DNA of 64,000 nucleotides from Xanthomonas nasturtii (lineage in GTDB: Bacteria; Pseudomonadota; Gammaproteobacteria; Xanthomonadales; Xanthomonadaceae), in contig NZ_LYMI01000003.1 in NCBI RefSeq assembly GCF_001660815.1, positions 1-64,000 on the forward strand. The letters are read 5' to 3'. Made by a program: the position numbers and the translations under genes. The notes below the pieces were generated by a model. That model was not told the origin of the DNA, ran no database searches, and saw only the letters and a program-made list of their open reading frames with translations. Below, one piece after another: positions 2,310 through 50,621 of the stretch. Each line of letters begins with the position of its first letter. Position 1 is the first letter of the stretch.

Positions 2310-5300
2310 TCAGAAGTCGTAGCTCAACGTTACCCGGCCCGAGCGTGGTGCCTGATAGGCCACGACCTGATCCCATAGCGGGTTGGTGGTGTTATCGGGC
2401 AGCTGCGAGAACGGATAGATGTTGGTCGCGGTCTGCTCGTTGGTGATGTTGAATACGTCGAAGCGCAACGCCAGCTTGCCGTCGGCAAACGCCGGCTTGT
2501 AAGTCACGCCCATATCCAGCTGGGCGATCCAGCCCAGGCGGCCCTGCGAGCCCGGAGGCGATGCCACACCGGTGCCGGTTTCCGGGTTGTAGCAGTAGTG
2601 GTAGGGCCCGCCGGTGATGGCGCTGCCGCCGTAGCCGGCCGGATCGCGACCGCTGTACTCGGTGCCGTAGTAATTGCCCAGGCAATTATGCGGCGCACCG
2701 GAAATCAGGCTGAAATTGGCCGAAGCGCCCCATTGCGGGTTGAACTGATAGAAGCCGAACAGCTTGAGCTGATGGCGGTGATCGTTGGATTGATCGCCGT
2801 TGAAGTGCTCCATCAATGCCGCGTGGTCCCAGCTCTGCGTGGTCGAGACCGATGCCTGCCCCTGATAGCTGCCCAGTGCACCGCCGGTGCGCCACAGGTC
2901 CGAACGCACCTGACCTTCGGTGGTGCCGTAGCTGTGCGACCAGACGTAATTGACCTTGGCGTACCACTTGCCGTCGAACGGACGCTCCAGGTTGAATTCC
3001 ACCGCCGAGTAATTGCGCTTGAACTTCGGGAAACCCGCCGCTTCGCGGCTGACCGACACTTCGTGGAACTGCCCATCGGTGCCGATCACACCCCAGGTGT
3101 TGGTCTGGCCCGGATTGATCAACGAGGCACCAGCCACTCTTGAGAAGTCGATGGTGACGCCCTGCGCCGCCGCCGCATCGATCAACGCGGTATTGGAGAC
3201 ATCATAGTTCTGGTCGTCGATGCCCGCATTGAGACGGCGATGCGTGCCGCGCACGCCCAACACCCAACCGGTGTCCAGCTGTTTGGTGAAGCCGAGAATG
3301 ACTTCGTCCTGATTTTCGCCCTCGATATCCTTGGCCACTGCGGTGCGCACATCGGCGATGCGGCCAAAGCGCGAATTGGCCGACACCGCCGAGCCCAGCT
3401 GCCGCGCCAGGACCGGTGTGCCATCGGCGTTGATGCCGCTGTAGGTGAAATAGGTGTCTGTCGTGGTGGCCGGCGTAAACAGACTCACCGCCGACAGCGG
3501 CAGGCCGAGGTAGTAGCGGCCGACGTTGCCGAACACCTTCAGGCTGGAATCGCCGTTGACGTCCCAGCTGAAGCCCAAGCGCGGCGCCCAGGCATTGTCC
3601 ACTTCAATGTAGGGGTCGCCGAACGGGGTGTAGTTGGTGAACTCGTCCTTGCGCAGGCCGATGCTCAGCAACAGGTTGTCGGTCACCTGCCACTTGTCTT
3701 CGATGTAGTAGGCGCGTTGCTTGGCTTCGTACGAATACAGGCTGGTGTTGATATTGCGCACCACGTAATAGCCGCTCGACCCGTTGACCGGATCGACCAG
3801 GCCCGGGCTTGGCGCGCCGATGCCGCCGGCTTCGTTGGCAGACTGGCTGACCAACCCGCCGGTGGCCAACCCATTGGGGTCGTTGGTCTGGCCGTAGGTC
3901 CAGGCGAAGCCGGGGCCGGACAGCACCGAGCCAACGTCGATCCCTTCTGACTTCTGGTTGTCGATACCGAAATTGAGCGTGTGGTGGCCGAGGCGCCATT
4001 CCAGATTCAGGCGTTGATTGTCTTTCTTGTACGCACGGTCCGGCGAGCTGACCGAGGTGACCAGCTGGCTACCGATGCGTGGCGTGCCGCCGGTATAGGC
4101 CGGATTTTGCAGTGCGGCGCTATTGATCACCGGGCCGCTGGCCGCGTTGTAATTGAACGGGGTCAGCTCGTCGGGCGTGCGCATCTTGCCGTACAGCGCG
4201 GTCACAGTGAGGTTGTCGCCCAGGTAGCCGGTGTACTTGCCGGTGAACAGCGTGGGGCCGGTCTTCCAGGTGGATTCGTCGGTGAAATAGCTGCCGCGCG
4301 TGCGATTGACATAGTCGTAGCGATAGATCGAACCGTTGGTCTCCGCCTCATCGCTGGCACCGGTCACCTCGATCAGGTGGTTGTCGGTGATGTTCCAGTC
4401 CACCTTGGCGTACCAGCGCTTCTGCTTGTAGTCGTAGTCGGTGAGGCCGCCGGTGCGGCCGTTGTCGGTGTCGCGGTTGGTGCCCACGCGCACGCCGTCC
4501 GAATCCACCTGCTCGGCGGCAAGGAAGAAGAACAGCTTGTCCTGGATGATCGGCCCGCCGACGTAGGCGCTGTAGGTGGTCTGGTTGGCTTCGGCCTCGC
4601 TGGCCGGCTGGTACAGGCCGTTGGCCGCGCGCGCATACCGGTAGGCGGCATTGTTGACCGTGCTGCCCTGGCTGTCCGGGCGCCAGTAGATATCGCGCTG
4701 GTTGGCGCGCAGGCCATTGGGCTCCCAGATGACGGCGGCGCCGAACTTCCACTCGTTGGTGCCGCGCTTGCCGATCTGGTTGATTACACCGCCGTTGGCG
4801 CGGCCGTACTGCGCGCCGTAGCCGCCGGTAAAGATTTCCTGCTGGTCGATGGCGCCGTACGGCAGGGTCAGGCCGCCCAGGTTGTTGCTGATGGTGGTGG
4901 TGTTGAAGCCATTGAGGTAATAGGCGTTTTCGCTGGCGGCAGAACCGCCGAAGCTGGGCAGCGAGCCGCCGAGCGGGCCGTTGTCGAAGCCGCCGCTGTT
5001 GACCACCACCCCCGGTGCCAGCAGCGCGATCGCTTCGGCGGTGCGGCCCAGCGGCAGTTGCTGCAACTGTTCTGCGGTGATCACGGTGCGCGTGTCGACG
5101 CTGCTGACGTCGATGGTGGTCAGGCCCGCGGCGCTGACCGTGACGCTGTCGAGCGTCTGCACGCTGCTCCCCGCAGCGTTGGCAGCGAACGACACATCGG
5201 TGTTGGCGCCGACGGTGATGCTGACGTTCTCCCGGGTTTCCACCACCGCGCCATCGCGCTTGACCGTGACCTTGTACGTGCCCAGCGGAAGATTGCCGGC

Positions 5301-5489
5301 GGTGTAGCGGCCCCGTGCGTCCACCGGCACTTCACGACTCAGGCCACTGTTGTTTTCCACCAGCACGCTCGTGCCACTTCCCTGCCCTACGCTGCCGACG
5401 ATGCTGCCGGTGGTCGATTGGGCGTGTGCACTGCCGATGGCCACAACCAGCGCCAACGCCAGGGCACGCTTCTGGATACGACGGTTCAT
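2310..5489 (-). CDS. Oar-like TonB-dependent receptor with N-terminal carboxypeptidase-regulatory-like domain
   Basis: A 1059-residue outer-membrane protein expected to take up a ligand with energy from TonB-ExbBD. A signal peptide ends near AHA-Q (residues 1-23). Residues about 28-110 form a carboxypeptidase-regulatory-like beta domain (GRYTAGNLPLGTYKVTVKRD). The plug follows (TVITAEQLQQLPLGR, then GGYGAQYGRANGGVINQIGK), and then a long beta-barrel ending in the C-terminal aromatic VTLSYDF expected for BAM recognition. This architecture is the Oar type, frequent in Xanthomonas. The substrate cannot be read from sequence. The gene is monocistronic, with a strong terminator downstream, and is divergent from hemL. 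Confidence 0.9.
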   Translation of the reverse strand: MNRRIQKRALALALVVAIGSAHAQSTTGSIVGSVGQGSGTSVLVENNSGLSREVPVDARGRYTAGNLPLGTYKVTVKRDGAVVETRENVSITVGANTDVSFAANAAGSSVQTLDSVTVSAAGLTTIDVSSVDTRTVITAEQLQQLPLGRTAEAIALLAPGVVVNSGGFDNGPLGGSLPSFGGSAASENAYYLNGFNTTTISNNLGGLTLPYGAIDQQEIFTGGYGAQYGRANGGVINQIGKRGTNEWKFGAAVIWEPNGLRANQRDIYWRPDSQGSTVNNAAYRYARAANGLYQPASEAEANQTTYSAYVGGPIIQDKLFFFLAAEQVDSDGVRVGTNRDTDNGRTGGLTDYDYKQKRWYAKVDWNITDNHLIEVTGASDEAETNGSIYRYDYVNRTRGSYFTDESTWKTGPTLFTGKYTGYLGDNLTVTALYGKMRTPDELTPFNYNAASGPVINSAALQNPAYTGGTPRIGSQLVTSVSSPDRAYKKDNQRLNLEWRLGHHTLNFGIDNQKSEGIDVGSVLSGPGFAWTYGQTNDPNGLATGGLVSQSANEAGGIGAPSPGLVDPVNGSSGYYVVRNINTSLYSYEAKQRAYYIEDKWQVTDNLLLSIGLRKDEFTNYTPFGDPYIEVDNAWAPRLGFSWDVNGDSSLKVFGNVGRYYLGLPLSAVSLFTPATTTDTYFTYSGINADGTPVLARQLGSAVSANSRFGRIADVRTAVAKDIEGENQDEVILGFTKQLDTGWVLGVRGTHRRLNAGIDDQNYDVSNTALIDAAAAQGVTIDFSRVAGASLINPGQTNTWGVIGTDGQFHEVSVSREAAGFPKFKRNYSAVEFNLERPFDGKWYAKVNYVWSHSYGTTEGQVRSDLWRTGGALGSYQGQASVSTTQSWDHAALMEHFNGDQSNDHRHQLKLFGFYQFNPQWGASANFSLISGAPHNCLGNYYGTEYSGRDPAGYGGSAITGGPYHYCYNPETGTGVASPPGSQGRLGWIAQLDMGVTYKPAFADGKLALRFDVFNITNEQTATNIYPFSQLPDNTTNPLWDQVVAYQAPRSGRVTLSYDF

Positions 5490-5796
5490 GCTTTCTCCCC
5501 AAGATGGAAACTGCCGGCAAGGCGGCTAAATGAAGGGGGCCGACGGCCACCGGAATCACACTTTCTGAAGATCGACAGCGGAGCGCCAATGACTGCGCGC
5601 CATCAGCTGATGCCCAAACTGTCGATGCCGTCGCGTTCGATCATAGGCAGCCGGGTTGCCCTACCCGCCCACTCCGACGGGTAGGCGGGTGTTCTGCGGG
5701 TAGGCGCGCGAGGCCGCAGGCCTGACAATGGCGGACGCGATGCCCGCCGCCGGGCGTCGATGTCCCCCAATCGGTATTTCTCAAGGATCTGCGCGC
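5490..5796. other. Divergent intergenic region between receptor and hemL
   Basis: About 300 bases that must hold both promoters. CTACCC at 5659-5664 can pair with GGGTAG at 5677-5682, and GGCGGGTG and GCGGGTAGG follow; no T-run is adjacent, so it is not an obvious terminator. AAGGA at 5783-5787 is the hemL ribosome site. I could not assign a convincing -35/-10 pair by eye. Confidence 0.45.
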
Positions 5797-7086: not shown

Positions 7087-7622
7087 GGAATCGGGAATCG
7101 GGGATTGGCGATTGCGGGAGCGTTCGCGGCTCACGGGGCGCGGCACGGCGCGGTGTGATCGTGGCGGACTTGCTGTTGCGCTAGGTGCTTGCGCCTAGTC
7201 GCGTTGCCCTGAGTGTCAAGGGCTTGGTTGTGCGTGCGCTGCGGCCTGTTCATGGCGAAAGCCGCCGCGGACCTGTGCGTGTTGCAGGAACACCTGTCGG
7301 CGTCGCAAAGGTGATGTGCCGCTGTGTCTGCCTGGCCCCAATCACCGCCAGGCGCGCTCTAATGTTTCTCGACCATGCGCACGGGGCGGCGCATCCGTGG
7401 GGATGCCGCCGTCAACTCGGCGCCACATGCTTTGCTTTTGTCGTGTGGCTGTCATATGTTTCTGAAAGGTGCTCAGGGACGGGCATGGGTGGGGACCCTT
7501 GAAGCAGCGCTGCACCGTCGTCGCCGATTCCGGCGATGCACCTGCATTGCCGCTGTTTCACCACGATCTGCAGCGTGTCGAGCCGGCGCGCTGCCGACGC
7601 TTGCCAGGGCCGCCCTCGCCTC
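7087..7622. other. Intergenic region, short GGGAATCGG repeat and probable promoter of the MalT-like gene
   Basis: It starts with a two-to-three-unit GGAATCGGGAATCGGGGATT repeat (7086-7113). The rest has no gene I can support; open frames here lack ribosome sites and family resemblance. A possible promoter is TTTGCTT near 7432 with CATATG near 7454, close to the right spacing, but this is only suggestive. Confidence 0.4.
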
Positions 7623-10394
7623 ATGCTCAAGCCTGTTGCGCTGCTCACCCCGCGCCCGTCACCGTCGCGCGACCCCGTCACTCCCGATTGGCTGCTTGCC
7701 GGCAAGCTGGAGCCGCCGTTGCCGCGCCCCGGTGCGGTAGTGCGTGGCGCGCTGCTGACTGCGCTGGATCAGGCCCAGGCACGCCCGCTGACGCTGTTGC
7801 TTGCCCCACCCGGCTTCGGCAAGACCACGCTGCTGGCGCAGTGGCATGCGCAACTGAGTGCGCGCGAGCATGGCGCGGCGGCGTGGCTGTCTTTGGACGA
7901 AGAAGACGCGGATGCGGCGCGGTTCCTGAGCCATCTTGCGCTGGCGCTGCAGAGCGCTGGCGCCGACCACGCGCTGTGCGCTGCGGTGCTGCACCACCGC
8001 GACCAGGACCCGCGCGAAGCGGCGACCATGTTGCTTCGCGCACTGCGCGCCGCGCCGCGCCGCATCAGCATGATTCTCGACGACTACGACCGGCTCGGCA
8101 GCAGCCTTGTCGACGAAGTGGTGCTGCGCCTGATCGAACACAGCGGTGGACGCCTGCATTTAGTGCTTGCCACCCGGCGTGTGCCCAACCTGCCGCTGGC
8201 ACGGCTGGATCTGCAAGCCCAGCTCAGCCGCGTCGGTAGCGCGCAACTGGCGCTCGACGAGGCGGAAGCGCAAGCGTTACTTGGCCCGCACGTGCCGGCG
8301 CCGGTGGTGGACGAACTGCGCCGCTATACCGAAGGCTGGCCGGTGGCGCTGCATCTGGCGCGGCTCTGGCTGGAAGGCGACGCGCAACGTCAGCAAGAGG
8401 TTGCGGCGCGTTTCTCCGGACGCAGCGCACAGGTTGCGGCGTATCTGGCCGAACAGGTGGTCAACGATCTGGACGCGGACACCCGCGACCTGCTGCTACG
8501 CACCAGCCCACTGGAACGCATCAGCGCATCGCTCGCCGATTCGGTGCGCCAGCGCGACGACAGCGGCCGGCTGCTGGCGCAGCTGGAACATTTTCATGGC
8601 CTGCTGATCCCCCTGGATGGCGAACGCGAGTGGTTCCGCTATCACCCGCTGTTTGCCGACTTCTTGCAGCAGCTGCTCGAGCGCGAACATCCCGGCCAGA
8701 GCGGGCAGCTGCATCAACGCGCGGCGCGTTGGTTCGGCGACCATCAGCATCTGGCCGAAGCGGTACGGCATGCCTCACGCGGGGGCTGTGGCGATCTTGC
8801 CGCCAGCTACATCGCGCGCGCCGGCACCTGGCAATTATTGCTGACCCACGGCACCCATGCAGTGCGTGCGCTGTTGCGCCATTTCGACCACCGCACCATC
8901 CGCGACACACCTGCGTTGAATCTCACCCAGGCGCATCTGCACGTAAAGCTCGGCGAGTTCAGTCATGCGCGGCTGTTGCTGGAGCGCTTCCGCGATTTTC
9001 CGGCCGCATTGCGCGAGCCGCTGCAGCGTGACTACACCGTGGTGGTAGCGTTGCTGCGCGACCGTCTGGATGAAATCTGCGGCAATCCGCATGGCCTGAC
9101 CCAGATCACCGCCCAGGCCAACGCGCTGGATGAAGACGACCATCTCGGCCGCGGCATGTTGCTGTGCATCTGCGGGATTACCGCGATTGCGCAGGGCGCA
9201 TTCGCGGTGGCCGAGCGTTACGCACTCAACGCGCGCGACGCGATGCAGCGCGGCGGCAGCGAGCTGGGGGCCAGCCAGGCAGTGCTGTCGCTGGGCCAGA
9301 GCCTGTTCTATCGCGGCCGGCTCAGCGATGCAGAAGCCTGCTACCAGCAGGCATTGAGCTGGTGCGCACGCACCCCGCAACCGGATCGCGTGCTGGAAGC
9401 CGCCGGTCAATGCCTGCTCGCGCAATTGCACCACGAACGCGGGCACCACGACGACGCTGCCGATCTACTGCATCCGGCGCTGGAATTGCTGGAGCAACAC
9501 GACGGCGGCATGGATGTACTGGCCGCCGGATACGGCACCGCGCTGGGGCTGGAGCGCCTCCGCGACCACAGCGGGCGCAGTGCATTGTTGTTGCTGGAGC
9601 ATGTCGAGCAGATCGCGCACGGGCGCAAGCTGGCGCGCTTGTCGGAACTGGCTGCGGCATGGCGGCTGATGCTGTTGCTGGAGCATCCGGGCAACGCCGC
9701 GATCGATGTGCTCATCGCACGTACCGGCGGCGAATCCGGCCTGGCGCACACGTTGCGCTCGCCACACCGCTGGCACGACCGCGCGGCGATGGGCTTCGCA
9801 CTTGCGCGCTGGCATCGCCTGGCCGGGCGCAGCAGCGCAGCGCTGACCATCCTTGGACAGATCGAACAGGCCTGCCTGGCCAACGACAATGCCTGCCACC
9901 TGGCACGCACCCGCGCGCGCATCGCGCTGGTACTGCAGCAACGCGGCGAACTGGTCGCTGCCCTGCCGCATCTGTACAGCGCGCTGGAGCATGTCGCGCT
10001 GACGCAAAGCTGGCAGGCGATCGTGGAACTGGGCTTGCCGGCCAAGGCGATGCTGCGTTCGCTACGCCAGCACGACCCGCACACCGTCGGCGGCACCACA
10101 CGTGCGCTGACCATCCAGGCCTTGCTCGAACGCCTCAGCGGCGGCGACGATCCGGCCGGCGACATCTTCAGCGAACGCGAACTGGAAGTGCTGGCGCAAC
10201 TGGCGCGCGGCTATTCCAACAAGCAGATCGCACGCTGCCTGCACCTGTCGGAAAACACGGTCAAATTCCATCTGAAGAACCTCTACCGCAAACTCGACGC
10301 ACGCAGCCGAGAAAGCGCGCTGGCGCAGGCCTTGCAGCGCGGGTTGTTGCGCACAGCGGATCGGCCCGGCAGTCCGGAGACGGCGCCAGGCTGA
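7623..10394 (+). CDS. MalT-like ATP-dependent transcriptional regulator, LuxR family (STAND NTPase)
   Basis: A 923-residue regulator. The N-terminal third is a STAND ATPase: Walker A APPGFGKTTLLAQW near residues 60-73, a Walker B-like region ISMILDDYDRLG, and LVLATRRVP. The middle is a long alpha-helical, TPR-like sensor region. The C-terminus has a LuxR-type helix-turn-helix (FSERELEVLAQLARGYSNKQ, then LSENTVKFHLKNLYRKLDA). By analogy with MalT, the ATP- and inducer-bound form would oligomerise and activate transcription; the inducer is unknown. The ATG at 7623 (MLKPVALLTP) is chosen because the upstream 29 codons look non-coding. A perfect 38-bp palindrome separates it from the flavin monooxygenase gene, a plausible target. 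Confidence 0.88.
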   Translation: MLKPVALLTPRPSPSRDPVTPDWLLAGKLEPPLPRPGAVVRGALLTALDQAQARPLTLLLAPPGFGKTTLLAQWHAQLSAREHGAAAWLSLDEEDADAARFLSHLALALQSAGADHALCAAVLHHRDQDPREAATMLLRALRAAPRRISMILDDYDRLGSSLVDEVVLRLIEHSGGRLHLVLATRRVPNLPLARLDLQAQLSRVGSAQLALDEAEAQALLGPHVPAPVVDELRRYTEGWPVALHLARLWLEGDAQRQQEVAARFSGRSAQVAAYLAEQVVNDLDADTRDLLLRTSPLERISASLADSVRQRDDSGRLLAQLEHFHGLLIPLDGEREWFRYHPLFADFLQQLLEREHPGQSGQLHQRAARWFGDHQHLAEAVRHASRGGCGDLAASYIARAGTWQLLLTHGTHAVRALLRHFDHRTIRDTPALNLTQAHLHVKLGEFSHARLLLERFRDFPAALREPLQRDYTVVVALLRDRLDEICGNPHGLTQITAQANALDEDDHLGRGMLLCICGITAIAQGAFAVAERYALNARDAMQRGGSELGASQAVLSLGQSLFYRGRLSDAEACYQQALSWCARTPQPDRVLEAAGQCLLAQLHHERGHHDDAADLLHPALELLEQHDGGMDVLAAGYGTALGLERLRDHSGRSALLLLEHVEQIAHGRKLARLSELAAAWRLMLLLEHPGNAAIDVLIARTGGESGLAHTLRSPHRWHDRAAMGFALARWHRLAGRSSAALTILGQIEQACLANDNACHLARTRARIALVLQQRGELVAALPHLYSALEHVALTQSWQAIVELGLPAKAMLRSLRQHDPHTVGGTTRALTIQALLERLSGGDDPAGDIFSERELEVLAQLARGYSNKQIARCLHLSENTVKFHLKNLYRKLDARSRESALAQALQRGLLRTADRPGSPETAPG

Positions 10395-10419
10395 CCGCCA
10401 GCACCGGCGCTGGCTTCCG

Positions 10420-10457
10420 CCGATAAAGATACATCATGTATGATGTATCTTTATCGG
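10420..10457. promoter_or_regulatory. Perfect 38-bp palindrome, probable operator of the monooxygenase gene
   Basis: The arms 10420-10437 and 10440-10457 are exact reverse complements of 18 bases with a 2-base centre (GT). The core is ATACATCAT-GT-ATGATGTAT and the sequence is AT-rich in a GC-rich setting. It ends 11 bases before the monooxygenase ATG, so a bound protein would block the promoter or ribosome site. There is no T-run, which argues against a simple terminator for the upstream gene. The ATACAT/ATGTAT half-site style suits a TetR-, MarR- or PadR-type dimer. Confidence 0.7.
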
Positions 10458-10468
10458 GAGATCACAGC

Positions 10469-11659
10469 ATGGCTGCTCGCATCCTTGTCACTGGCGCCAG
10501 CGTTGCCGGCACCACCACGGCCTGGTGGCTTGCCAGGTATGGCCGCGATGTTGAAGTCGTGGAGCGCGCACCCGCGTTCCGTGACGGCGGACAAAACGTG
10601 GACGTGCGCGGCACCGCGCGAGACGTGCTGCGCCGGATGGGCCTGGAGGCGTTGCTGCTCGAACGCAGCACCCGGGAGCGCGGCACCGATTGGGTCACCG
10701 AAGACAATCACGTGGTCGGCCGCTTCGAAGCGGCGCACTCCGACACCGACGGCGGCCCGACTGCGGAGATGGAAATCCGCCGCGGCGATATCGCCCGGAT
10801 CATCTACGAGGCCGCAGCAGCGCAAGGAGTCCGCTTCCGCTTCGGTGACAGCATCGCACGCGTTGAGCAGCGCGACGGCGGCGTCCAGGTCACCTTTGCC
10901 GGCGGCCACCAGGAAACCTATGCGCTTGTGGTGATCGCCGAGGGCGTCGGCTCGCACACCAGGGAGCTGGTTTTTCCCGCAGAGAATCGGCCGCGCTGGA
11001 TGGACCTGACGATTGCCTATTTCAGCATTCCGCAGATCGCCAGCGACGGCGTCTATGCGCGGCAATACAACACGCTGGGAGGCCGGGGAGCGGTGGTAAA
11101 ACCTGCGCGCGGCGGCAAGTTGGGAGTCTATCTCGGCATCCAGAAGCGACCCGGTCACGAGAACAGCTGGAGCGTGGCGCAGCAGCGCGCCTTCATTCGT
11201 GCGCAGTTCTCTGCGCTGGGTTGGGAGTTTCCGCGCATCATGGATGCGATGACGGACGTCGACGACTTCTACTTCGATGTGCTGCGCCAGGTACGCATGG
11301 ACCGCTGGTCCAACGGTCGGGTGGTCCTGACCGGCGATGCGGCATGGTGCCCGACCGCACTGTCCGGCATCGGCACCACGCTTGCGATCGTGGGTGCCTA
11401 CGTCCTTGCCGGAGAGCTTGCCAGGTCGGACACGCCGGCAACTGCCTTCGCGCGCTACGAACGCATCATGCGCCCCTTCGTCAAACAGGGGCAGAACATT
11501 CCCAAGCTGGTCCCGCGCCTGCTGTGGCCGCATACCCGCTTCGGGCTGGCAGTGCTGCGCAAGGTCATCCGCCTGGCCAGCCGGCCGGCGCTCAGGTCGT
11601 TCATCAACAACCATTTTGCGCGGGACGCCAACGCAATCGCCTTGCCACGCTACGAGTAG
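10469..11659 (+). CDS. FAD-dependent monooxygenase (PHBH/RdmE-like)
   Basis: A 396-residue cytosolic flavoprotein hydroxylase. The Rossmann FAD motif is at the very start (ILVTGASVAGTTTAWWLARY, with GxSxAG replacing GxGxxG). The acidic end is VVERAP, an arginine-containing RRGDIARIIYEAA follows near residue 107, and the second FAD motif is VVLTGDAAWCPTALSGIGTT near residue 285. This set is typical of class A flavin monooxygenases acting on aromatic or polyketide substrates, and of TetX-like enzymes. The start at 10469 is set by GGAG at 10457-10460; an earlier in-frame start at 10436 would lie inside the palindrome. It is probably controlled through that palindrome. Substrate unknown. Confidence 0.85.
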   Translation: MAARILVTGASVAGTTTAWWLARYGRDVEVVERAPAFRDGGQNVDVRGTARDVLRRMGLEALLLERSTRERGTDWVTEDNHVVGRFEAAHSDTDGGPTAEMEIRRGDIARIIYEAAAAQGVRFRFGDSIARVEQRDGGVQVTFAGGHQETYALVVIAEGVGSHTRELVFPAENRPRWMDLTIAYFSIPQIASDGVYARQYNTLGGRGAVVKPARGGKLGVYLGIQKRPGHENSWSVAQQRAFIRAQFSALGWEFPRIMDAMTDVDDFYFDVLRQVRMDRWSNGRVVLTGDAAWCPTALSGIGTTLAIVGAYVLAGELARSDTPATAFARYERIMRPFVKQGQNIPKLVPRLLWPHTRFGLAVLRKVIRLASRPALRSFINNHFARDANAIALPRYE

Positions 11660-11891
11660 ACTAACCGTTTGACCGGAAAAGCCAGCTAAAAAAGCAGCCT
11701 GCACAGCGTTCGGCGAAAGACGCTGACGCTGATGCGCCAACGCCGAAACTAGAAGCAGCGTCCACGGCGCTGGTTGGCGCTGCCGCCCACTCCGGTCGCG
11801 ATCGCCCTGGAGCATGCGACGCGACCGCGCGTCAGCCCCCCCTCACACTTCACTCCTGCCGCGGCCACGCACACCTGCGGCACGTGACAGC

Positions 11892-12341
11892 TCAACCAAA
11901 CATCAGCGTGCCCTTCATCATCGCCCAGTGGCCGGGGAACGAGCAGAAGAAGGTGTAATCGCCGCCCTTGCTCAACTTGCTGGTGGGAAAGCTGACCGTG
12001 GTGCTATCGCCGCCGCCGATGACCTTGGTGTGCGCGATCACGCGCGCGTCGGCCTTGGGCAGATAGCTGTCGGCAATGGTGGAACGCACGCCGGCATTGG
12101 CCACCGCCTGGAAGTCGGCGGACTTGGTCAGCACCCAGTTATGCCCCATCACCGTGGCGGCCATCTTGCCGGAGTGCTTGAGCGTGAGCTCCACCTGCGT
12201 GCAGTCGGGTGCCAGCTTGATCGCGCTCTGGTCGAACTTCATCTGATCGTTGCCGGTGATGGTCACCGCGCAGGTGCGCGCCCAGGCCGAAGGCGCCATC
12301 AGCACCAGGGCACACACGGCAATCGTGGAAAACAGCTTCAA
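11892..12341 (-). CDS. azu: Azurin (periplasmic type 1 blue copper protein)
   Basis: A 149-residue exported electron carrier with a signal peptide ending at SAWA-RTCAVTI. The mature part of about 128 residues has all copper ligands: His in MGHNWVL, Cys in FFCSFPGHW, His in the same segment, and the axial Met in HWAMMKGTLMFG. Azurins pass electrons between periplasmic dehydrogenases, cytochromes c and terminal enzymes. It is co-directional with the cluster at 12549-18702, 207 bases after the aminotransferase stop, so it may have its own promoter. That position makes it a candidate electron acceptor for the cytochrome c of that cluster; this is inference from position only. Confidence 0.93.
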   Translation of the reverse strand: MKLFSTIAVCALVLMAPSAWARTCAVTITGNDQMKFDQSAIKLAPDCTQVELTLKHSGKMAATVMGHNWVLTKSADFQAVANAGVRSTIADSYLPKADARVIAHTKVIGGGDSTTVSFPTSKLSKGGDYTFFCSFPGHWAMMKGTLMFG

Positions 12342-12548: not shown

Positions 12549-13751
12549 TCACGCGTAATGGAAAAACCCATCCATCGGATCCATCACTGCAGAGGCAACC
12601 GCCGGCACCGGCAGCGGGCCACGCTTGCCGGCGATCACCTGCACGAATGCCTGCTTGAAGCGCGCCATCTCCGCGTCGGTGCCCACCGTAATCCGCGACC
12701 AGGTTGGCCACACCGGCCAGCTGCGGCCGATGAACACGCCATGGGTGGCCATGTCGTCCTTGAAGCCTGCCGCCGGCCGCCGCACATCGACCATGAAACA
12801 GTTGCTCTCCGATGCAGTGCAGGCATAGCCGTGCTTGCCGAGAAATTCCAGCACATCCTTGCGGGTGGCGGCGGTGCGTGCGCGCCGCTGCGGCACCAAT
12901 GCAGGGTCGCGCAAACTGGCCAACCCTGCGGCGGCAGCGGTCACCGGCAGGCTGTTGACGCCATAGAACATCAGCTTGGCCAGCAGCTCCGGGCGCGCGG
13001 CTGCATAGCCCAGGCGGATGCCGGCCATGCCGTAGAGTTTGGAGAAGGTGCGCAACACCACCACGTCCTCGCCGGCGGCGACCATGTCGACCACGCTGCT
13101 GGTGCTCTGCGCGAAGTGGATATAGGCCTCGTCCACCACCAGCACACTGCCCTTGGGCTTGTGCGCCAATGCGTAGTCCAGATCCTTGCGCGCAGTGACC
13201 GAGCCGGTGGGGTTATTGGGATTGCAGATGTAGATCACGCCGGGGCTGGCGTCGGCCGCGCACATCGCCTGCACATCGTGCGAAAAGTCCTTGCGCAGCG
13301 GCACCTTGATCAGTTTTGCGCCATTGCGTGCGGCCGCACGCCAACCGGATTCGTAGGTGGGATCGGCGGTGACGAGCGCTGCGCTGGGCGAGGTGAATGC
13401 CAGCATTGTGTAGTCCAGCGGCTCGGTGGAGCCGGCGTAGGCCATCAGATGATCCACCGGCAGCTTGAGTTCGGCAGCCAAGGTGGTCATCAATTCCATC
13501 TGCACCTCGCGCAGGTAACGCCCGCCTTGCGGTGCGATCTGCGCAATGGCCTTCACTGCAGCGGCGGACGGGCCATCCGGGAATTCGTTGGAGCCGATCA
13601 TGACCGGCGCCAATGCACTTGCCGGTGTCGGCGCGATGGCAGCGGAGCGTTCGGCAGCGCTGGCCAACAGCGGCAAGCTGCCTGCACCGGCGGCGCCGGC
13701 AAACAGCGCGGAGTCGCGGAGAAACGTGCGGCGCGAAAGAGCAGTTTTCAT
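12549..13751 (-). CDS. Tat-exported PLP-dependent aminotransferase, HisC-like
   Basis: A 400-residue class I/II aminotransferase that appears to work in the periplasm. Residues 1-33 form a Tat signal with a near-ideal twin-arginine box (LSRRTFLRDSALFAG) and a cleavage-like ASA-AE site. The catalytic core is complete: NEFPDGPS near residue 55, ADPTYESGW, CNPNNPTGS near residue 178, VVDEAYIHF near residue 207, and the PLP lysine in RTFSKLYGMAGIRLGYAAA near residue 239. HisC is cytosolic, so this is a paralogue. Pre-folded export through Tat would let it carry PLP across. It is the last gene of the co-directional cluster, 30 bases after RidA, with a GGAGG ribosome site. Substrate unknown. Confidence 0.87.
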   Translation of the reverse strand: MKTALSRRTFLRDSALFAGAAGAGSLPLLASAAERSAAIAPTPASALAPVMIGSNEFPDGPSAAAVKAIAQIAPQGGRYLREVQMELMTTLAAELKLPVDHLMAYAGSTEPLDYTMLAFTSPSAALVTADPTYESGWRAAARNGAKLIKVPLRKDFSHDVQAMCAADASPGVIYICNPNNPTGSVTARKDLDYALAHKPKGSVLVVDEAYIHFAQSTSSVVDMVAAGEDVVVLRTFSKLYGMAGIRLGYAAARPELLAKLMFYGVNSLPVTAAAAGLASLRDPALVPQRRARTAATRKDVLEFLGKHGYACTASESNCFMVDVRRPAAGFKDDMATHGVFIGRSWPVWPTWSRITVGTDAEMARFKQAFVQVIAGKRGPLPVPAVASAVMDPMDGFFHYA

Positions 13752-13781
13752 GACAACCTCCAGCAGGACGGTAACGCGGGC

Positions 13782-14285
13782 TCAGGGGCGCACAGCGACA
13801 ACTTCGATCTCGACCCGATACAGCGGGTTACCCAACGCCGCGATCTGGAAGGCCGAGCGCGCCGGCAGGTTGGGCTGTTCCTTGGTGCCGAAGAACTGGC
13901 GATACCCTTCCATGAACCCGTTGAAATCCATCTTGCCGCCCATGGCCGGGTCGCCGACCAGAAACACCTGCATCTTCACCACATCGCCCATGCCCAGGCC
14001 GAGCGATTTCAGCTGTTCCTGGATCTGCTTCAACACGCTCACCGTTTGCGCCTTGGTGTCGCCGTAGGCGGCAGCCGAATCCTTCGCTGCGCTGGTGTCG
14101 ATCACCGCCGGCACCTTGCCGCTGACATACACCGTAGCCTTGCCGGCGGGAATTTCCACCGCTGCGGCAATGGGGAAATCGCTGTTGGGAATCTTGTGGC
14201 GGATCACCTCGGCAGCATCTGCAGCGCTGAGGCCTGCAGACAGCACGACGGTGGCGACGAGGGCATTGACGGCGGGACGGAACAT
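13782..14285 (-). CDS. Exported RidA-family protein (imine/enamine deaminase)
   Basis: A 167-residue RidA/YjgF/L-PSP-family protein with a signal peptide (residues 1-24, cleavage-like ADA-AE). The fold signatures are present: VYVSGKVPAVID, QTVSVLKQIQEQLKSLGLG, DVVKMQVFLVGDP, and [20 protein letters not shown], whose arginine is the usual carboxylate-binding residue. RidA hydrolyses reactive 2-imino acids and enamines to carbonyls plus ammonia. Most family members are cytosolic, so an exported form matters here: it sits between an oxidase that makes imines and an aminotransferase. AAGGAG lies 6 bases before the ATG at 14285, which decides the start; the open frame extends further upstream, into cytochrome c. 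Confidence 0.85.
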   Translation of the reverse strand: MFRPAVNALVATVVLSAGLSAADAAEVIRHKIPNSDFPIAAAVEIPAGKATVYVSGKVPAVIDTSAAKDSAAAYGDTKAQTVSVLKQIQEQLKSLGLGMGDVVKMQVFLVGDPAMGGKMDFNGFMEGYRQFFGTKEQPNLPARSAFQIAALGNPLYRVEIEVVAVRP

Positions 14286-14307
14286 GGCAACTCCTTGGAA
14301 GAGAGAA

Positions 14308-14733
14308 TCAGTGGCGCAGCAGCTTGACGTCGTCGGCAGTGACACGCTCGGCATGGTCGTTGCCGAAATGGGTGCGCACATAGCTCACCACTTCGGCCAC
14401 CTGCCGATCTGTGAGCATATCGCTGAATCCCGGCATGCCGGCGTGACCGTCGAGCACCATCATGGTGACGTAGGGCGCAGCCGCCAGCTTGGGATTTCCG
14501 GCAAGCGCCGGGTATTCGCCGGCGCCCTGCGCACCGCTGCCGGCGGGCATGTGGCAGCCCTGGCAGACCGCGCGGTACACATGCTCGCCGGAGGCGGTGG
14601 CGAACCCCTTCTGCGGATACAGCGCCGTGGCGTCGGAACTTTGCGCCTGCGCGTCGCACAGGCCGGGCGGAAGCAGCGCAGCGCCGATGACCAGCGCAAC
14701 GGCCGCAGCAAACAGACGTGGCAACAGGCTCAT
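14308..14733 (-). CDS. Exported class I cytochrome c, mono-haem
   Basis: A 141-residue c-type cytochrome. A hydrophobic signal peptide covers about residues 1-31 (ending DAQAQ). One haem site, CQGCH, lies near residue 57, and a downstream methionine in HAGMPGFSDMLTD is the probable sixth ligand. The helix RQVAEVVSYVRTHFG is the usual C-terminal helix. It would accept electrons from the FAD oxidoreductase encoded just upstream, whose stop overlaps its start as ATGA (14730-14733). Such coupling suggests the two are made in a fixed ratio and act together. It ends 22 bases before RidA. Confidence 0.88.
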   Translation of the reverse strand: MSLLPRLFAAAVALVIGAALLPPGLCDAQAQSSDATALYPQKGFATASGEHVYRAVCQGCHMPAGSGAQGAGEYPALAGNPKLAAAPYVTMMVLDGHAGMPGFSDMLTDRQVAEVVSYVRTHFGNDHAERVTADDVKLLRH

Positions 14734-16346
14734 GCGCGGCCTCCCCCGGAAATGACCTTGCGATGCAGGCGGCCAACGACATCGTGCGCAGACAGAATCG
14801 CGCCCTCCTGCCAGGCCGGGATGTACGACACATGCTCACCGGCCAGCGCCAGGCGCCCGTCGATCTGGCACAACGGTTCGTAATGCTCGGCGCGTGCCTG
14901 CTCGCTCCACATGCCGAAGCAGCCATGTGCGAACGGCACGCGGTGCCAACCGACGGCGATGCCGTTTTCGAATTCGCGTGGATACTGCGGATGCAGCTGC
15001 GTGCCGTATTCCACCGCCTTGCGCACGCGCTGCTCCGGCGTCATCGACGTGAATTGGTAAGCATCCAGCCCCCACACATAGGCGCCGAGCAGCACCCCTT
15101 TGCCGGGGCTGTGGTAGTTGGTGCTGGGGTAACTGATCAAGGTGATCGGCAGGTCGGTATAGCTGATGCCGCCATAGATCGCTTTGTCCTCTTCCCAGAA
15201 GCGGCGCTTGAATTGCAACCCGACCTTCACCGATGCCGCGTACGGCACCTTGCCGATCGCCGTGGTCATCGCGTCGCCGGCGGTGACCGGAATACGGCTC
15301 AGCACCGACAACGGAATCGTGCAGATGCACCAATCCGCGCTGGCAATGCGTTCTTCGCCGCCACGCGCTGCGTCCTGCCAGGACACGCGCACGCCGCTGC
15401 CGTCCTGATCGATCTTGGTGACCTTGGCGTTATAGGTGATGGCATCGCCGAGCTGACGCGCGAATGCCTTGCCGATCTGGTCCATGCCGCCCACCGGCTG
15501 GAACATGGTGGTCTGCATTTCGTAGTTGTTGCCGGCCGCCAGCGTGGTCCACAGGCGCGAGTGCAGCACGTCCTGCACGCTGAAGGGGTCGGAGAACTCC
15601 GGCTTGCCCGACAAGCCACCACCGGGATACCGCGCAAAGCCGCGCCGCTCGCTGCTGTCCTTGCCTTTGACGTAACCGAACTTTTGATCGAGCGCGCCCC
15701 AGGTGCGCAAGGATTCCAGCAACACTTCCTGGTCTTCGCGGCTCACGCTCTTGTCCAAGGCATGTTGCTGCGTGCACTTGGCCAGCAACTCGGACACGTG
15801 GCCCTTGTAATCGGCGTCGATGGCGCGAAAACGCTGCGGTTTGCCGCCGAAGCCCTTTTCGCTATGCAGCAGCGCGTTGTAGTTGACCTGGTTGAAGGCT
15901 TCCAATGCCACGCCGAACTGCTTGCAATAACTCAGCACCGCCTTGTGGTGATGCGGTATGCGCCATGGGCCGGGATTGAGATATAGCCCGTCATCGAACT
16001 GGCAGTGCTGCGCGGCGCCACCCAACTCGGTGTAGCGGTCGCCGCCACGCAGTGTCCAGTTCCGCCCGCCGGGGCGGTCGTTGTATTCCAGCACCTGCAC
16101 GCGGTAACCGGCCTTGCGCAGTTCGAATGCGGCGCTCATGCCGGCCAGCCCGGCGCCCAGGATCAGGACCGAGGCGCCCTTGGGGTCGCCATCCAGCTGC
16201 AATGGCCCCTTGAAACTGGATTCGGCCGCCATGCCCAGGCTGCTCATCGCCTGATACATCATCGCGCCGCCAGCGGTCATGCCAATGCGCGCCAGCAATT
16301 GCCGCCGCGTCATCGTTCCCGTGTGATTACCTTGCATCAACGTCAT
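14730..16346 (-). CDS. Tat-exported FAD amine/L-amino acid oxidoreductase (flavin monoamine oxidase family)
   Basis: A 538-residue flavoenzyme expected to oxidise a C-N bond to an imine. The N-terminus carries a Tat box (TMTRRQLLARIGM). The FAD Rossmann motif follows (VLILGAGLAGMSAAFELRKA, near residue 60), then LEYNDRPGGRNWTLRGG, then LNPGPWRIPHHH, a segment shared with L-amino-acid-oxidase and tryptophan-monooxygenase-like members. The C-terminal FAD segment is LALAGEHVSYIPAWQEGAIL. Starts at 16346, 16337 and 16313 are all in frame; AGGGGA best fits 16337, and the twin-arginine box is kept in each case. The cytochrome c overlap suggests that it passes electrons to haem rather than only to oxygen. 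Substrate unknown. Confidence 0.86.
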   Translation of the reverse strand: MTLMQGNHTGTMTRRQLLARIGMTAGGAMMYQAMSSLGMAAESSFKGPLQLDGDPKGASVLILGAGLAGMSAAFELRKAGYRVQVLEYNDRPGGRNWTLRGGDRYTELGGAAQHCQFDDGLYLNPGPWRIPHHHKAVLSYCKQFGVALEAFNQVNYNALLHSEKGFGGKPQRFRAIDADYKGHVSELLAKCTQQHALDKSVSREDQEVLLESLRTWGALDQKFGYVKGKDSSERRGFARYPGGGLSGKPEFSDPFSVQDVLHSRLWTTLAAGNNYEMQTTMFQPVGGMDQIGKAFARQLGDAITYNAKVTKIDQDGSGVRVSWQDAARGGEERIASADWCICTIPLSVLSRIPVTAGDAMTTAIGKVPYAASVKVGLQFKRRFWEEDKAIYGGISYTDLPITLISYPSTNYHSPGKGVLLGAYVWGLDAYQFTSMTPEQRVRKAVEYGTQLHPQYPREFENGIAVGWHRVPFAHGCFGMWSEQARAEHYEPLCQIDGRLALAGEHVSYIPAWQEGAILSAHDVVGRLHRKVISGGGRA

Positions 16347-16407
16347 TTCCCCTGCATGTCATGGACAAACGCGCGTCGCCGGCATGCGTGCCGGCGACGG
16401 CTGCACC

Positions 16408-18702
16408 TCAGAATTTGTAGGCCAGGCTGGCGAACAGCTGGCGCGGTGCGATCAGCTGATACGACCCGGAGCTTTCGTTGGGAAATACCGCACCGATCGC
16501 ATCGTCCTTGTCGAACAGGTTGTAGACCGACAGCTGCAACCGCCCGCCGGCAAGAAACCCACTGTCTTCACCCTGGTACCCCACGCTGCCGTTGACGATG
16601 AAGGTGGCGTCCACCTGATCGGTATTGAGCGTGTCGCCGTAGCGCTTGCCGGTGTATTTGGTGTCGAGGTTGGCGAAGAAATGCTCGCCTTCCCAACCGC
16701 CGTTGAGGCTGAACATCAGCTTGGGCGAATCCGGTACTTCGTTGCCTTCCACCTGCACCAGGTTGCCGCTGACCGGGCCGAAGTAGTTGTCCTGGAATTC
16801 GGATGTGTTCCAGGTCAGCGAGGCGCCCAGCCGCCAGCCCGGCGCCGGTTTCCACATGCCGGAGACTTCTGCGCCGTAGGTCTGCACATCGCCGACGTTG
16901 GCGTAGACGGTGGGCGCCACCACCAGCGGGTCCGGGTCGGTGAGCGCGATGATGCGGTTTTCGTAATCGATCTTGTAGGCGGCGATATAGCCGCTCCACT
17001 GCGTGGATTCGGCGCGGATGCCGATATCGATGTTGGTGGATTCTTCCGGCGCGATCTCCGGGTTGAACGCACCCGAGGTCAGCGCCAGCCGCGGTGCGGA
17101 ACTGAAGTTCTCCGCGTAATTGGCAAACACCTGCACGCCTTCGGCAAGCTGGAAGCTAGCACCGACCTGCGGCTGGAACCAGTCGCTGTTGTTGATGGTC
17201 ACATTGCGCCGCACACCGATATTGAAATCGTCCAGGTTGGCGATGCCGTTGTAGTCGCGTTTGACATCCAGGCCCTTGGCGCCGAACTCCATCGTGAGCC
17301 TGTCATCGAGCAGACGCAGCGTGTCCTTGATGTAGAGCTGCTTCACCTCGGTGGAGAAATGATTGTCGTAGTAGATGACGATCGGCAGCGAGCCTTTGAG
17401 TAGCGCGCCGGTGGCCGGGTCCAGGTTGTATAGCGGGCGCACCTGATCGAAATCGTAGTTTTCGTACCACGCGCCGACTTCGAGTTTGTTGTGCTCGGTC
17501 TCCCACGACACCGCCGTGGTCGCGCCGTAGCGATCGCCGCCCATGATTTCTTCGCGCCGGGTCATCGCACCGACACTGGTGACGTTGCCGTTGGCATCGA
17601 CAATCTGCGGGTCGTTGATGGCGATGTCGGTGCGGCCCGGCGTGCCGGCGATGGCATCGTTGTACAAGCCGGTGGCCGTGCTCGGCGGCGTGCCGCCGAC
17701 GCCGTAGCCGTGCTTGTTTTCGTAGTAGCCGGTGAAGGTGAAGCCGATCGCATCGTTGAACAGGAAATCGCCATGCAAGCTGAGCAGCGAATCGCGCCGG
17801 CCGTTCTGCCATTGGCTGTAATGCTCGGCATCCACTTCCGGGTTGCCGGTGATGCGTTCGTGCAGATCCCACGCCACCGAACCGTCGGAGTTGTACGACT
17901 GCACGTCGTAGTCCTTGCGGTTGTTGTAGATCCAGCCCAGGGTCAGGCTGCCCGCGTCCCAGGCCTGGCGAATCTTGGCTTCGAAGTGGTCGCTCTTTTG
18001 CGTGGCCGGTTCCATGTCCCACACCCCGCCCTGCGTGCGCGAGGCGGAGAGGTACGCGCTGGGGCCGCCTTCCCACCAATCCGGCGTATCCAGGCGCACG
18101 AAGCTGCGCACCAGATCGTCCGAGCCGATGGTCTGGGTGAGATTGCCGCTCCAGCCGTCACCCCCCTTCGGTGGCAGGCTGGTGTAACGGATCGCGCCGC
18201 CGAGTGCGTGATACGAGGGCTGGGTGACATCGCCCGAGCCGGCCGACACGGTGACGTCGAGCAGGTTCTCGCTGGACACGTAACGGGTGATCGGCCCGCC
18301 TTCGCGGGTGTCGAAGGTTTCGATCGGAATACCGTCCAGGGTCACGCCGATCTGGTTGGCGGAAAACCCGCGGATGGTCATCGAATCGCCGAACTCGTAT
18401 AGCCCGAACGGGTCGGTGGTCTGCACGTTCACGCCGGGCAGGCTGGCCAACAGCTGCTGCGGCGCCACCCCGGGCACCTGCGCCTGGATCTCGGCAACCG
18501 AGATGGACGCGGTGGTGCGCGTGGAACCGGTGCCCACCACGCTGACCGCATCCAGCGTGCGCGCGTCCTGCGCCACGGCGGGCAGGCTGTGTGCGCCGGC
18601 CAGCAACAAGGTCATCGACGCCAGCATGTGGCGCGAGCGGGTGGTGCTGAGGATGGCGGCGACCGAGGCCGCCAGGTGATCGGTATTCAGGCACTTTCGC
18701 AT
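16408..18702 (-). CDS. TonB-dependent receptor heading the amine-oxidation cluster
   Basis: A 764-residue outer-membrane receptor. A long signal region (MRKCLNTDH onward, ending PAVAQ-DA) is followed by a TonB-box-like DAVSVVGTG. The plug runs through VPGVAPQQLLASLPGVNVQT, IRGFSANQIGVTLDGIPI and GALG-type loops. The 22-strand barrel ends with the aromatic FASLAYKF. Shape and length are those of FecA/siderophore-type receptors rather than the larger Oar type. It lies 61 bases upstream of the FAD oxidoreductase on the same strand, so the pair probably shares a transcript and the receptor may import that enzyme's substrate. The ATG at 18702 is chosen because it gives basic residues before the hydrophobic stretch. 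Confidence 0.88.
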   Translation of the reverse strand: MRKCLNTDHLAASVAAILSTTRSRHMLASMTLLLAGAHSLPAVAQDARTLDAVSVVGTGSTRTTASISVAEIQAQVPGVAPQQLLASLPGVNVQTTDPFGLYEFGDSMTIRGFSANQIGVTLDGIPIETFDTREGGPITRYVSSENLLDVTVSAGSGDVTQPSYHALGGAIRYTSLPPKGGDGWSGNLTQTIGSDDLVRSFVRLDTPDWWEGGPSAYLSASRTQGGVWDMEPATQKSDHFEAKIRQAWDAGSLTLGWIYNNRKDYDVQSYNSDGSVAWDLHERITGNPEVDAEHYSQWQNGRRDSLLSLHGDFLFNDAIGFTFTGYYENKHGYGVGGTPPSTATGLYNDAIAGTPGRTDIAINDPQIVDANGNVTSVGAMTRREEIMGGDRYGATTAVSWETEHNKLEVGAWYENYDFDQVRPLYNLDPATGALLKGSLPIVIYYDNHFSTEVKQLYIKDTLRLLDDRLTMEFGAKGLDVKRDYNGIANLDDFNIGVRRNVTINNSDWFQPQVGASFQLAEGVQVFANYAENFSSAPRLALTSGAFNPEIAPEESTNIDIGIRAESTQWSGYIAAYKIDYENRIIALTDPDPLVVAPTVYANVGDVQTYGAEVSGMWKPAPGWRLGASLTWNTSEFQDNYFGPVSGNLVQVEGNEVPDSPKLMFSLNGGWEGEHFFANLDTKYTGKRYGDTLNTDQVDATFIVNGSVGYQGEDSGFLAGGRLQLSVYNLFDKDDAIGAVFPNESSGSYQLIAPRQLFASLAYKF

Positions 18703-18987
18703 GCACTCAAACCCCTGGAGACGTGTAGCGTGCTGAGTGACCGGGCGCTCCCCCGAGACCGGCCGACACCGCAAATGCGGCATGCATCGACCATAACCAG
18801 CACAGTTCCGCCGCAACCGCGGTGCGGAGGGTAGGGTCGGCGCAGGCGGGTAGGTTCCTACCGAATTCAAAACTCTGAATAGGTCTCTCGGCGACCTACC
18901 TACGCGATTTCGGGCATAGCAGGTCTTGCGCGCTTGCGATGCCGCCACGAATCGACAACGCTGCGCAGCCACTGCACGAGCACGCCT
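18703..18987. promoter_or_regulatory. Divergent control region with GGTAGG-TT-CCTACC palindrome
   Basis: This region separates the receptor cluster from the HAD gene. It holds a perfect 14-base palindrome at 18849-18862 (GGTAGG, TT, CCTACC). Related words lie nearby: GGGTAGGG near 18830 and ACCTACCTAC near 18895. Clustering of the same word in both orientations suggests a binding site for a regulator of the receptor cluster, the HAD gene or both. No regulator gene is adjacent. Confidence 0.45.
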
Positions 18988-23344: not shown

Positions 23345-23390
23345 TGATGGTTGAAGAAGATGGCCGCCGCAGCGTGCGGCCGAAAGGTAT

Positions 23391-24431: not shown

Positions 24432-24650
24432 GCGCGACACATCCCTGTTGGAAACGTTTTCAGCCGCGCACGGTAGCAAACCCTCCTGTGAACTCCCTGT
24501 GCTCGCTCCAGATAAAACGTGAGGCTGCTGGACCGCCACGGCACGGCCGCTGGTGGGCCGCACCTACACTCTCAATTGCGGCACCTGCGCGCCGATGCTC
24601 AAGCGCCCTCCGTCTCCAGCCAGCCGCACGGGCCGTCACGGTCGCCGCGC

Positions 24651-32168: not shown

Positions 32169-32174
32169 GAACGC

Positions 32175-32309
32175 CAGTCGCAGCACCCCTTTGGTCCTAC
32201 TCCCCAAGAGGCCAAATCCCCAGGGAGCTCATGCTGTCGGGGCTCTGAGCAAGCCCATTACTGGCGTTATTCTGCCCCGGTCGTCTTGTACGCCCGGGGT
32301 TTTTCTTTT
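32175..32309 (+). ncRNA. Candidate small RNA with C-rich loops and its own terminator
   Basis: About 135 bases between the divergent mpl promoter and the end of adk. A first hairpin pairs TTTGG (32190-32194) with CCAAA (32212-32216) and exposes CTCCCC in its loop; a second CCCC follows at 32217-32221. A middle hairpin uses GAGC and GCTC words (32225-32247). The 3' end is a CCCCGG/CCGGGG stem (32275-32280 with 32294-32299), followed by TTTTTCTTTT. No open frame of coding quality fits. C-rich loops are a feature reported for Xanthomonas sX-type sRNAs; whether this belongs to a named family needs an Rfam search. Confidence 0.5.
32275..32309 (+). terminator. Rho-independent terminator with no protein gene upstream
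   Basis: A six-bp GC stem with a 13-base loop is followed by TTTTTCTTTT on the plus strand. The nearest protein genes on both sides are on the minus strand, so it must end a non-coding transcript. Confidence 0.75.
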
Positions 32310-50585: not shown

Positions 50586-50621
50586 TCAGGTGACCGTGCA
50601 GGCACGGACCCTCGCATCTAA

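Follow-up and report, generated by a model that had tools for sequence, protein, structure and literature searches.

What is achieved by a set of genes that places an apparent amino acid oxidase, a cytochrome c, a Rid-family protein and an aminotransferase, all with putative export signals, behind a TonB-dependent receptor? The question arises from a 64,000-nucleotide stretch of the Xanthomonas nasturtii genome (the window), in which five such genes lie head to tail on the minus strand with intergenic gaps of 61, -4, 22 and 30 bases, all frames open. In order, they encode a TonB-dependent receptor of 764 amino acids with plug and barrel domains (16408..18702; PF00593 and PF07715), which is the operon's first gene in relatives; a flavin adenine dinucleotide (FAD) enzyme of the L-amino acid oxidase or dehydrogenase type with a twin-arginine translocation (Tat) motif (14730..16346; PF01593); a small CxxCH cytochrome c whose start codon overlaps the oxidase stop codon (14308..14733; PF13442); a Rid protein (13782..14285; PF01042); and a Tat-type aminotransferase dependent on pyridoxal phosphate (PLP) (12549..13751). 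A first-pass annotation had described this arrangement from the sequence alone. We found all five genes with the same gaps, Pfam agreed on each domain, and the twin-arginine assignments are borne out, as motif evidence, by TRRQLL in the flavoenzyme and SRRTFL in the aminotransferase. Export signals were judged throughout by the RR motif or by eye, not by a predictor; the leaders of the cytochrome and the Rid protein, both Sec-type, were called by eye. The coherent unit is larger than these five genes: it is probably a regulon that extends from an Oar-type receptor gene (position 2310) to the operon promoter (position 18854), and it takes in that receptor gene, a MalT-like regulator gene and a shared promoter element which, like a nearby azurin gene, the first-pass annotation had missed. 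Leaving aside how its parts are coupled, we favour on balance, from its sequence, a dedicated regulon whose products take up amino acids or peptides and deaminate them oxidatively in the periplasm.

The nature of the oxidase is indicated by its relatives. In sequence comparisons with the PDB, its residues 53–532 align to residues 6–486 of 2jae, which we take to be the Rhodococcus opacus enzyme, with an E-value of 4.4e-95, and the next relatives include reconstructed tetrapod L-amino acid oxidases. Among the 16 best solved relatives, 15 carry the name L-amino acid or L-glutamate oxidase and one (5ts5) that of 'Amine oxidase'. With relatives of this kind, the flavoenzyme is more likely to act on an alpha-amino acid than on an amine, and the amine oxidase proposed in the first-pass annotation is no longer our first choice. 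The Arg in the oxidase's GPWRIP motif aligns with the Arg in ATRIP of 2jae. In an alignment of 113 oxidases–four rows of which are duplicates, and many of which are close Xanthomonas relatives–Arg129 and Trp512 are kept in 112 rows (one gap each) and Lys374 in all 113, and Tyr423 is Tyr in 106 rows and Phe in seven. The arginines of the Tat-type motif are kept in 110 rows (R14) and 111 rows (R15). We take Arg129 to bind the substrate carboxylate, and similarly presume that the aromatic residues have roles in the substrate site. The window oxidase is 90–95% identical to relatives in the same genus, and the X. nasturtii genome has only one full copy (a second match spans 46 residues).

Gene order around the oxidase was compared in two samples. 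The first comprises 49 loci of named genomes with 51 oxidase copies and leaves out a fiftieth, L081, where the contig breaks off within the oxidase gene; Xanthomonas loci in this sample are up to 97% identical to the window oxidase. The second comprises 60 further loci with 61 copies, or 57 after removal of duplicates (L135 = L057, L165 = L076, L168 = L062 and L170 = L065). The five-gene neighbourhood, which the first-pass annotation had suggested looking for in relatives, keeps its order: the 51 copies of the first sample are accompanied by a cytochrome c in 51 cases, a Rid gene in 39, an aminotransferase in 32 and a TonB receptor within 1.5 kb in 35. In the second sample the cytochrome c gene is just downstream of the oxidase in 57/61 copies (53/57 deduplicated), a Rid gene is present in 43/61 (40/57) and a TonB receptor is within the same distance in 24/61 (22/57). 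The CxxCH motif and one Met are kept in all 111 aligned cytochromes, and Met100 is the likely sixth ligand in the window protein. The combination of a Tat signal and an adjacent cytochrome c is reported to predict cytochrome-using dehydrogenases in this enzyme superfamily (PMC12224317), and by motif the window has both, the cytochrome being Sec-type. By analogy, the cytochrome is probably the electron acceptor of the oxidase. We also noticed two distant oxidases (L129 and L130; 39–40% identical) with a family-B receptor (see below) and a Rid gene nearby and no cytochrome c detected, which are possible oxygen-using versions of the same module.

In the Rid protein, Arg143 (equivalent to RidA Arg105) and Glu161 are kept in 87/87 rows, so it has the catalytic Arg that marks the imine-deaminating subfamilies RidA and Rid1–3 (PMC5619798, PMC4433059). 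Its best PDB relatives, PSPTO3006 and PFL1385, have both been assigned to Rid3, a group reported to hydrolyse the imine products of an L-amino acid oxidase (PMC5619798), and Niehaus et al. had already noted that genes for FAD amine oxidases can have a RidA or Rid3 gene as neighbour (PMC4433059). We consider it quite probable that oxidase, cytochrome and Rid form the core of an exported L-amino-acid dehydrogenase system, on the strength of gene families, key residues and their conservation. The substrate, acceptor and Rid activity that we assign to it are carried over from named relatives. Sequence and conservation support the periplasmic pathway of the first-pass annotation as regards its export signals, the pairing of flavoenzyme and cytochrome, the catalytic Arg of the Rid and the gene order; an amine as the likely substrate is what we would change.

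This core is already known from other bacteria. The first-pass annotation knew of no named system, and yet oxidase, cytochrome c and Rid match the lao-cccA-ridA cluster of Gluconacetobacter diazotrophicus PAL5, where by its description the three genes likewise follow in this order on one strand (PMC5053998). Two Tn5 insertions in lao are reported to abolish indole-acetate and leave a large tryptophan peak, the transcripts of lao, cccA and ridA fall together, and Rodrigues et al. state that the arrangement is common to Xanthomonas and Caulobacter (PMC5053998). The portion of that paper available to us mentions no TonB protein, uses aminotransferase only as a general enzyme name, and describes no MalT-like regulator or shared promoter element; in two other Gluconacetobacter loci found here (L069 and L078) a family-B receptor is beside the oxidase. 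What lies beyond the known core–the transaminase, the interchangeable receptors and the regulatory switch–seems new, and the azurin gene downstream also goes further. A search of the open-licence literature returned nothing on a receptor–oxidase–aminotransferase operon or on the promoter repeat described next.

Alignment of the upstream regions of 21 operons that begin with a window-type receptor revealed a direct repeat, CCTACCC-N12-CCTACCC, with a -10-like TATGGT at a fixed spacing of 33 bases. In the window this operator-like repeat is at 18829..18854 and the hexamer at 18790..18795, both on the minus strand; in some operon upstream regions the second half-repeat is CCCACCC. The same element, with TATGAT at equal distance (repeat at 5679..5704 and hexamer at 5640..5645, minus strand), precedes the gene for a second TonB-dependent receptor, 13 kb away (2310..5489, minus strand), which has CarboxypepD_reg, plug and barrel domains by Pfam. 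We call this receptor Oar-type from its CarboxypepD_reg extension. The exact repeat occurs only twice in the 4.87-Mb genome and its reversed pattern not at all; with one mismatch allowed there are four matches, against two for the control. Of 35 genomes of the genus, 31 contain exact sites, 53 in total and at most two per genome; the other four have none, and the reversed control gave none in any of the 35. Twenty-two of these genomes have two sites, and in 21 of them both are on one contig and one strand, 8.5–13.2 kb apart. Because of this spacing we infer that the paired sites are the same two promoters across the genus; our gene-by-gene check covers the retrieved loci.

The element coincides with a regulator gene. 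At 7536..10394 (plus strand, convergent with the operon, with a start that is probably an internal ATG) the window encodes a MalT-like protein of the LuxR family (PF00196, PF13401, PF13424). It has the ATPase, TPR and LuxR-type DNA-binding domains of MalT and scores 291 bits against the MalT model NF003420, under the cut-off of 537; unlike those of MalT, its presumed targets are the receptors and the oxidase operon, not maltose genes. Allowing one mismatch, 40 of the 42 loci that have the MalT-like gene (37/39 deduplicated) show the element ahead of the oxidase or its receptor, and none of the 67 that lack the gene does (0/66), some of the latter being short contigs. Two regulator-bearing loci are without the element: in L050 the contig begins within the oxidase gene, and in L079 the spacer is 10 bases long. 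L081, which has the element and no visible regulator, was not counted. Across all loci this search gave 88 matches, against one for the reversed control. Before the Oar-type gene the element was found in 38/39 rows (36/37 deduplicated), at -208 to -222 relative to the start. We are fairly confident that the operon and the Oar-type receptor gene belong to a common regulon under the MalT-like regulator. Inverted repeats upstream of the operon's receptor gene were dropped as candidates, since they are not conserved in the alignment of upstream regions, and a consensus promoter and terminator scan gave 1 and 3 matches, against 1.2 and 4.7 in shuffled sequences.

The receptor next to the oxidase belongs to one of two families: A, the window type, and B, with proteins of about 900 residues. 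One family-B query finds family A at 42 to 73 bits and three others find none at an E-value of 1e-5, so the two families are only distantly related. Family B is the more widespread, being present in Acetobacteraceae, in presumed Rhodanobacteraceae of the same order (one contig of which duplicates a Dyella contig), and in other genomes across the class and phylum. On a tree of 75 representative oxidases, a Xanthomonadaceae clade of 12 rows (support 100/100) mixes A and B receptors, and L057, which has an A receptor, groups as sister to L167, which has a B receptor, on branches of 0.05. Receptors have therefore been exchanged while the oxidase stayed in place. Where family B is adjacent, the element precedes both the receptor and the oxidase in eight of nine loci (L054, L059, L060, L061, L132, L133, L134 and L167; we do not show it for L166), which ties distantly related receptors to the same switch. 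The sequence TLDAVSV in receptor A fits the Xanthomonas TonB-box consensus (PMC1790865). Receptor A has no relative in the PDB by sequence at an E-value of 0.001; the family-B receptor of Komagataeibacter locus L071 does match solved receptors, the best stretch being the N-terminal plug region.

The aminotransferase belongs to the PRK09105 subfamily (NF006580; 582.2 bits, cut-off 444). Its second-best family match is the equivalog model of PtaA, the Tat-exported PLP transaminase of pyoverdine maturation (PMC6206403), at 399.9 bits, which is under the cut-off of 500, and its genomic partner, unlike that of PtaA, is an amino acid oxidase. The catalytic Lys238 is invariant in 16/16 relatives and the RR pair nearly so. 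The AlphaFold model (mean predicted local distance difference test score, pLDDT, of 81.7) has a HisC-type fold nearest to 3ly1, a putative histidinol-phosphate aminotransferase, so we assign no substrate. The gene follows the core in 30/34 first-sample and 7/8 second-sample copies that have the MalT-like gene (35/39 deduplicated), and in 2/17 and 0/53 copies without it. The two regulator-less cases are L051, a short Xanthomonas contig with the gene in pieces, and L071 (Komagataeibacter, 44% identity); the pairing of oxidase and aminotransferase in Komagataeibacter perhaps has a separate origin. At L071 there are two head-to-tail oxidase–cytochrome pairs (2574-6135 and 7069-11982), one with a Tat aminotransferase and one with a family-B receptor. 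Elsewhere, in 13 neighbourhoods, the aminotransferase subfamily is mostly a lone gene. The X. nasturtii genome itself has a 47% identical paralogue (L171; C67:132556-133659) alone between smc-like and ligA-like genes, named from the starts of their proteins, and the same placement occurs in L172, L176 and L177.

These components suggest the following scheme. A MalT-like activator would sense an inducer and, through the CCTACCC repeats, switch on two promoters, one for the Oar-type receptor and the other for the receptor–oxidase–cytochrome–Rid–aminotransferase operon. The TonB receptors would import amino acids or peptides, or a complex of these, as far as the periplasm. There, a folded Tat-exported flavoenzyme would take hydride from an L-amino acid and pass the electrons to its co-encoded cytochrome c, making no peroxide, and perhaps onward to azurin and a terminal oxidase. 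The exported Rid would hydrolyse the resulting 2-imino acid, releasing keto acid and ammonia. A Tat-exported aminotransferase depends on a periplasmic amino acceptor, which the oxidase and Rid would make; a transdeamination cycle could arise if it exchanged the amino groups of other amino compounds with the fresh keto acid. A narrow oxidase could then deaminate a broader set of compounds; equally, the aminotransferase might use the keto acid as its amino acceptor. The cargo of the receptors, the binding of the activator and the coupling of the aminotransferase are where the scheme goes furthest beyond the data. We put the coupling of the transaminase to the oxidase and Rid forward tentatively, leaning against it, and regard as still more doubtful the full picture of a self-contained periplasmic transdeamination machine with its own regulator, in which the two enzymes would share keto acids catalytically, many amino acids or peptide amino groups would lose their nitrogen outside the cytoplasm, electrons would go directly to cytochrome c, and interchangeable TonB receptors under the same MalT-like activator would decide what enters.

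If the full picture were true, the machine would also provide a periplasmic transaminase with the amino acceptor it has been missing; for PtaA, PLP is said to be 'somehow' regenerated in the periplasm (PMC6206403). A Tat-type transaminase encoded with presumed keto-acid makers of the same compartment makes this question directly testable. The two-promoter regulon offers a testable function for the MalT-like regulator and for the Oar-type receptor, until now an orphan. The swapping of two receptor families behind a single promoter element amounts to a natural experiment that could show whether receptor turnover is driven by cargo or by escape from phages and bacteriocins.

Several other functions could be proposed for these genes. 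The enzyme might after all be an amine oxidase, exported to act on polyamines or aromatic amines: it is in the same superfamily (PF01593), dehydrogenases of the NicA2/Pnao type likewise pair a Tat flavoenzyme with an adjacent Sec-type cytochrome c (PMC12224317), and cyclohexylamine oxidase matches residues 285–446. Against the names of the best solved relatives and the conservation of Arg129 we consider this very unlikely; monoamine oxidase B and putrescine oxidase match best at the FAD motif only, and the window enzyme differs from the NicA2/Pnao type in being like L-amino acid oxidases and in having Rid and aminotransferase genes within its operon. A second possibility is auxin or aryl-pyruvate production: L-tryptophan would be the oxidase's main substrate in the periplasm, and the indole-3-pyruvate formed from it would feed indole-acetate, a signal to the plant. 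Xanthomonas lives on plants, which counts in its favour, and the window oxidase is 54% identical to that of G. azotocaptans and shares the key residues tested. The loss of indole-acetate in lao mutants of G. diazotrophicus fits too (PMC5053998), and the periplasmic LAO1/RidA pair of Chlamydomonas is reported to act likewise (PMC10805672). That pair resembles the window in joining an extracellular L-amino acid oxidase, used in nitrogen scavenging, to RidA (LAO2), and differs in being eukaryotic and in making peroxide; the part of the report that we could consult describes no cytochrome partner, receptor or aminotransferase (PMC10805672). Auxin production would leave the receptors, the aminotransferase and the MalT-like regulon unexplained, and there is no decarboxylase among the genes scanned around the operon, so that we rate it as unlikely, if less so than the other alternatives.

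The PtaA-like aminotransferase raises the prospect that it and the oxidase modify a secreted peptide or metallophore, as PtaA does in pyoverdine maturation, and that the receptors recover the product. In genomes of another bacterial class a Tat aminotransferase adjoins a family-B receptor (L182) or lies within about 3 kb of one (L174 and L183), and the listed part of these stretches contains no oxidase match. No peptide synthetase is among the neighbours scanned, the PtaA cut-off is missed and the aminotransferase is dispensable, and we think such tailoring quite unlikely. Alternatively, the oxidase could make iron-binding 2-keto acids and the TonB receptor import the complex. In Proteus, the keto acids that amino acid deaminases make have been counted among the non-classical siderophores, on inconclusive support; the TonB siderophore receptor model TIGR01783 gives receptor A its best score (117.6 bits, below the cut-off of 223.5), and a Fur box is predicted upstream of a unit containing lao in G. 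diazotrophicus (PMC9368920), which would favour an iron link there. In the window, the best Fur-box match is 9/19 both before the operon and before the Oar-type gene, and shuffled sequences did as well in 183/200 and 179/200 cases; moreover, the conserved element tracks the MalT-like regulator, and the receptor family is not fixed. Iron scavenging therefore seems to us the least probable of the four.

Our preferred reading, a regulon for periplasmic deamination of imported amino acids or peptides, has points to answer as well, of which the predicted Fur box of G. diazotrophicus is one. The action of the MalT-like protein on the repeat is presumed from their co-occurrence, and the regulator-bearing loci form a single clade on the oxidase tree, so that shared descent adds to this co-occurrence. 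Oar promoters of loci that do not belong to the core Xanthomonas group have a hexamer other than TATGAT at 33 nt, and in L059 and L060 neither operon-side site has TATGrT at that distance. The AlphaFold model of receptor A (mean pLDDT 42) is too poor to suggest a cargo by fold. There is no adjacent Rid gene in 12/51 copies of the first sample and 18/61 of the second (17/57 deduplicated), and a looser search of the retrieved stretches still found none in 10 of these 12 and 15 of these 18. The Rid-less loci include L069 and L078, from congeners of G. diazotrophicus; a Pfam search of both genomes found Rid genes, none positioned to fit the 30.7-kb L069 contig. L059, L076 and L079 lack the aminotransferase and L077 has it in a displaced position, which makes four of the 39 distinct regulator-bearing copies, so the core does not need it. 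To judge from these genomes it is an addition and not a required step, and the complete five-gene pathway of the first-pass annotation stands for its core and not for its aminotransferase or its interchangeable receptor. Finally, operon genes are split, truncated or stop-bearing in Xanthomonas loci L008, L041, L044 and L051 and in another genome, the broken copies including one oxidase with an internal stop and aminotransferases in pieces. This suggests that some species may do without the system, that it is lost in certain lifestyles, or that there are sequencing errors.

Downstream of the operon, 207 bp beyond the aminotransferase gene, is a gene for azurin (11892..12341, minus strand; TIGR02695, 194.6 bits, cut-off 105.1). 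Azurin is present downstream in 34/51 copies of the first sample; it is a possible further electron carrier and may have its own promoter. Between the azurin and MalT-like genes is a variable cassette with a FAD_binding_3 monooxygenase-like gene (10436-11659, plus strand), which is near full length in L035 and L065, occurs only as fragments in L046, L049 and L055, and was not found in the remaining loci of the first sample. Elsewhere in the window there are two tandem DUF3829 genes (22391-24563, minus strand), and the small RNAs sX11 and Xoo1 and a thiamine pyrophosphate (TPP) riboswitch (at 32171-32308, 48354-48447 and 50611-50708), one of the small RNAs being a Xanthomonadaceae sRNA.

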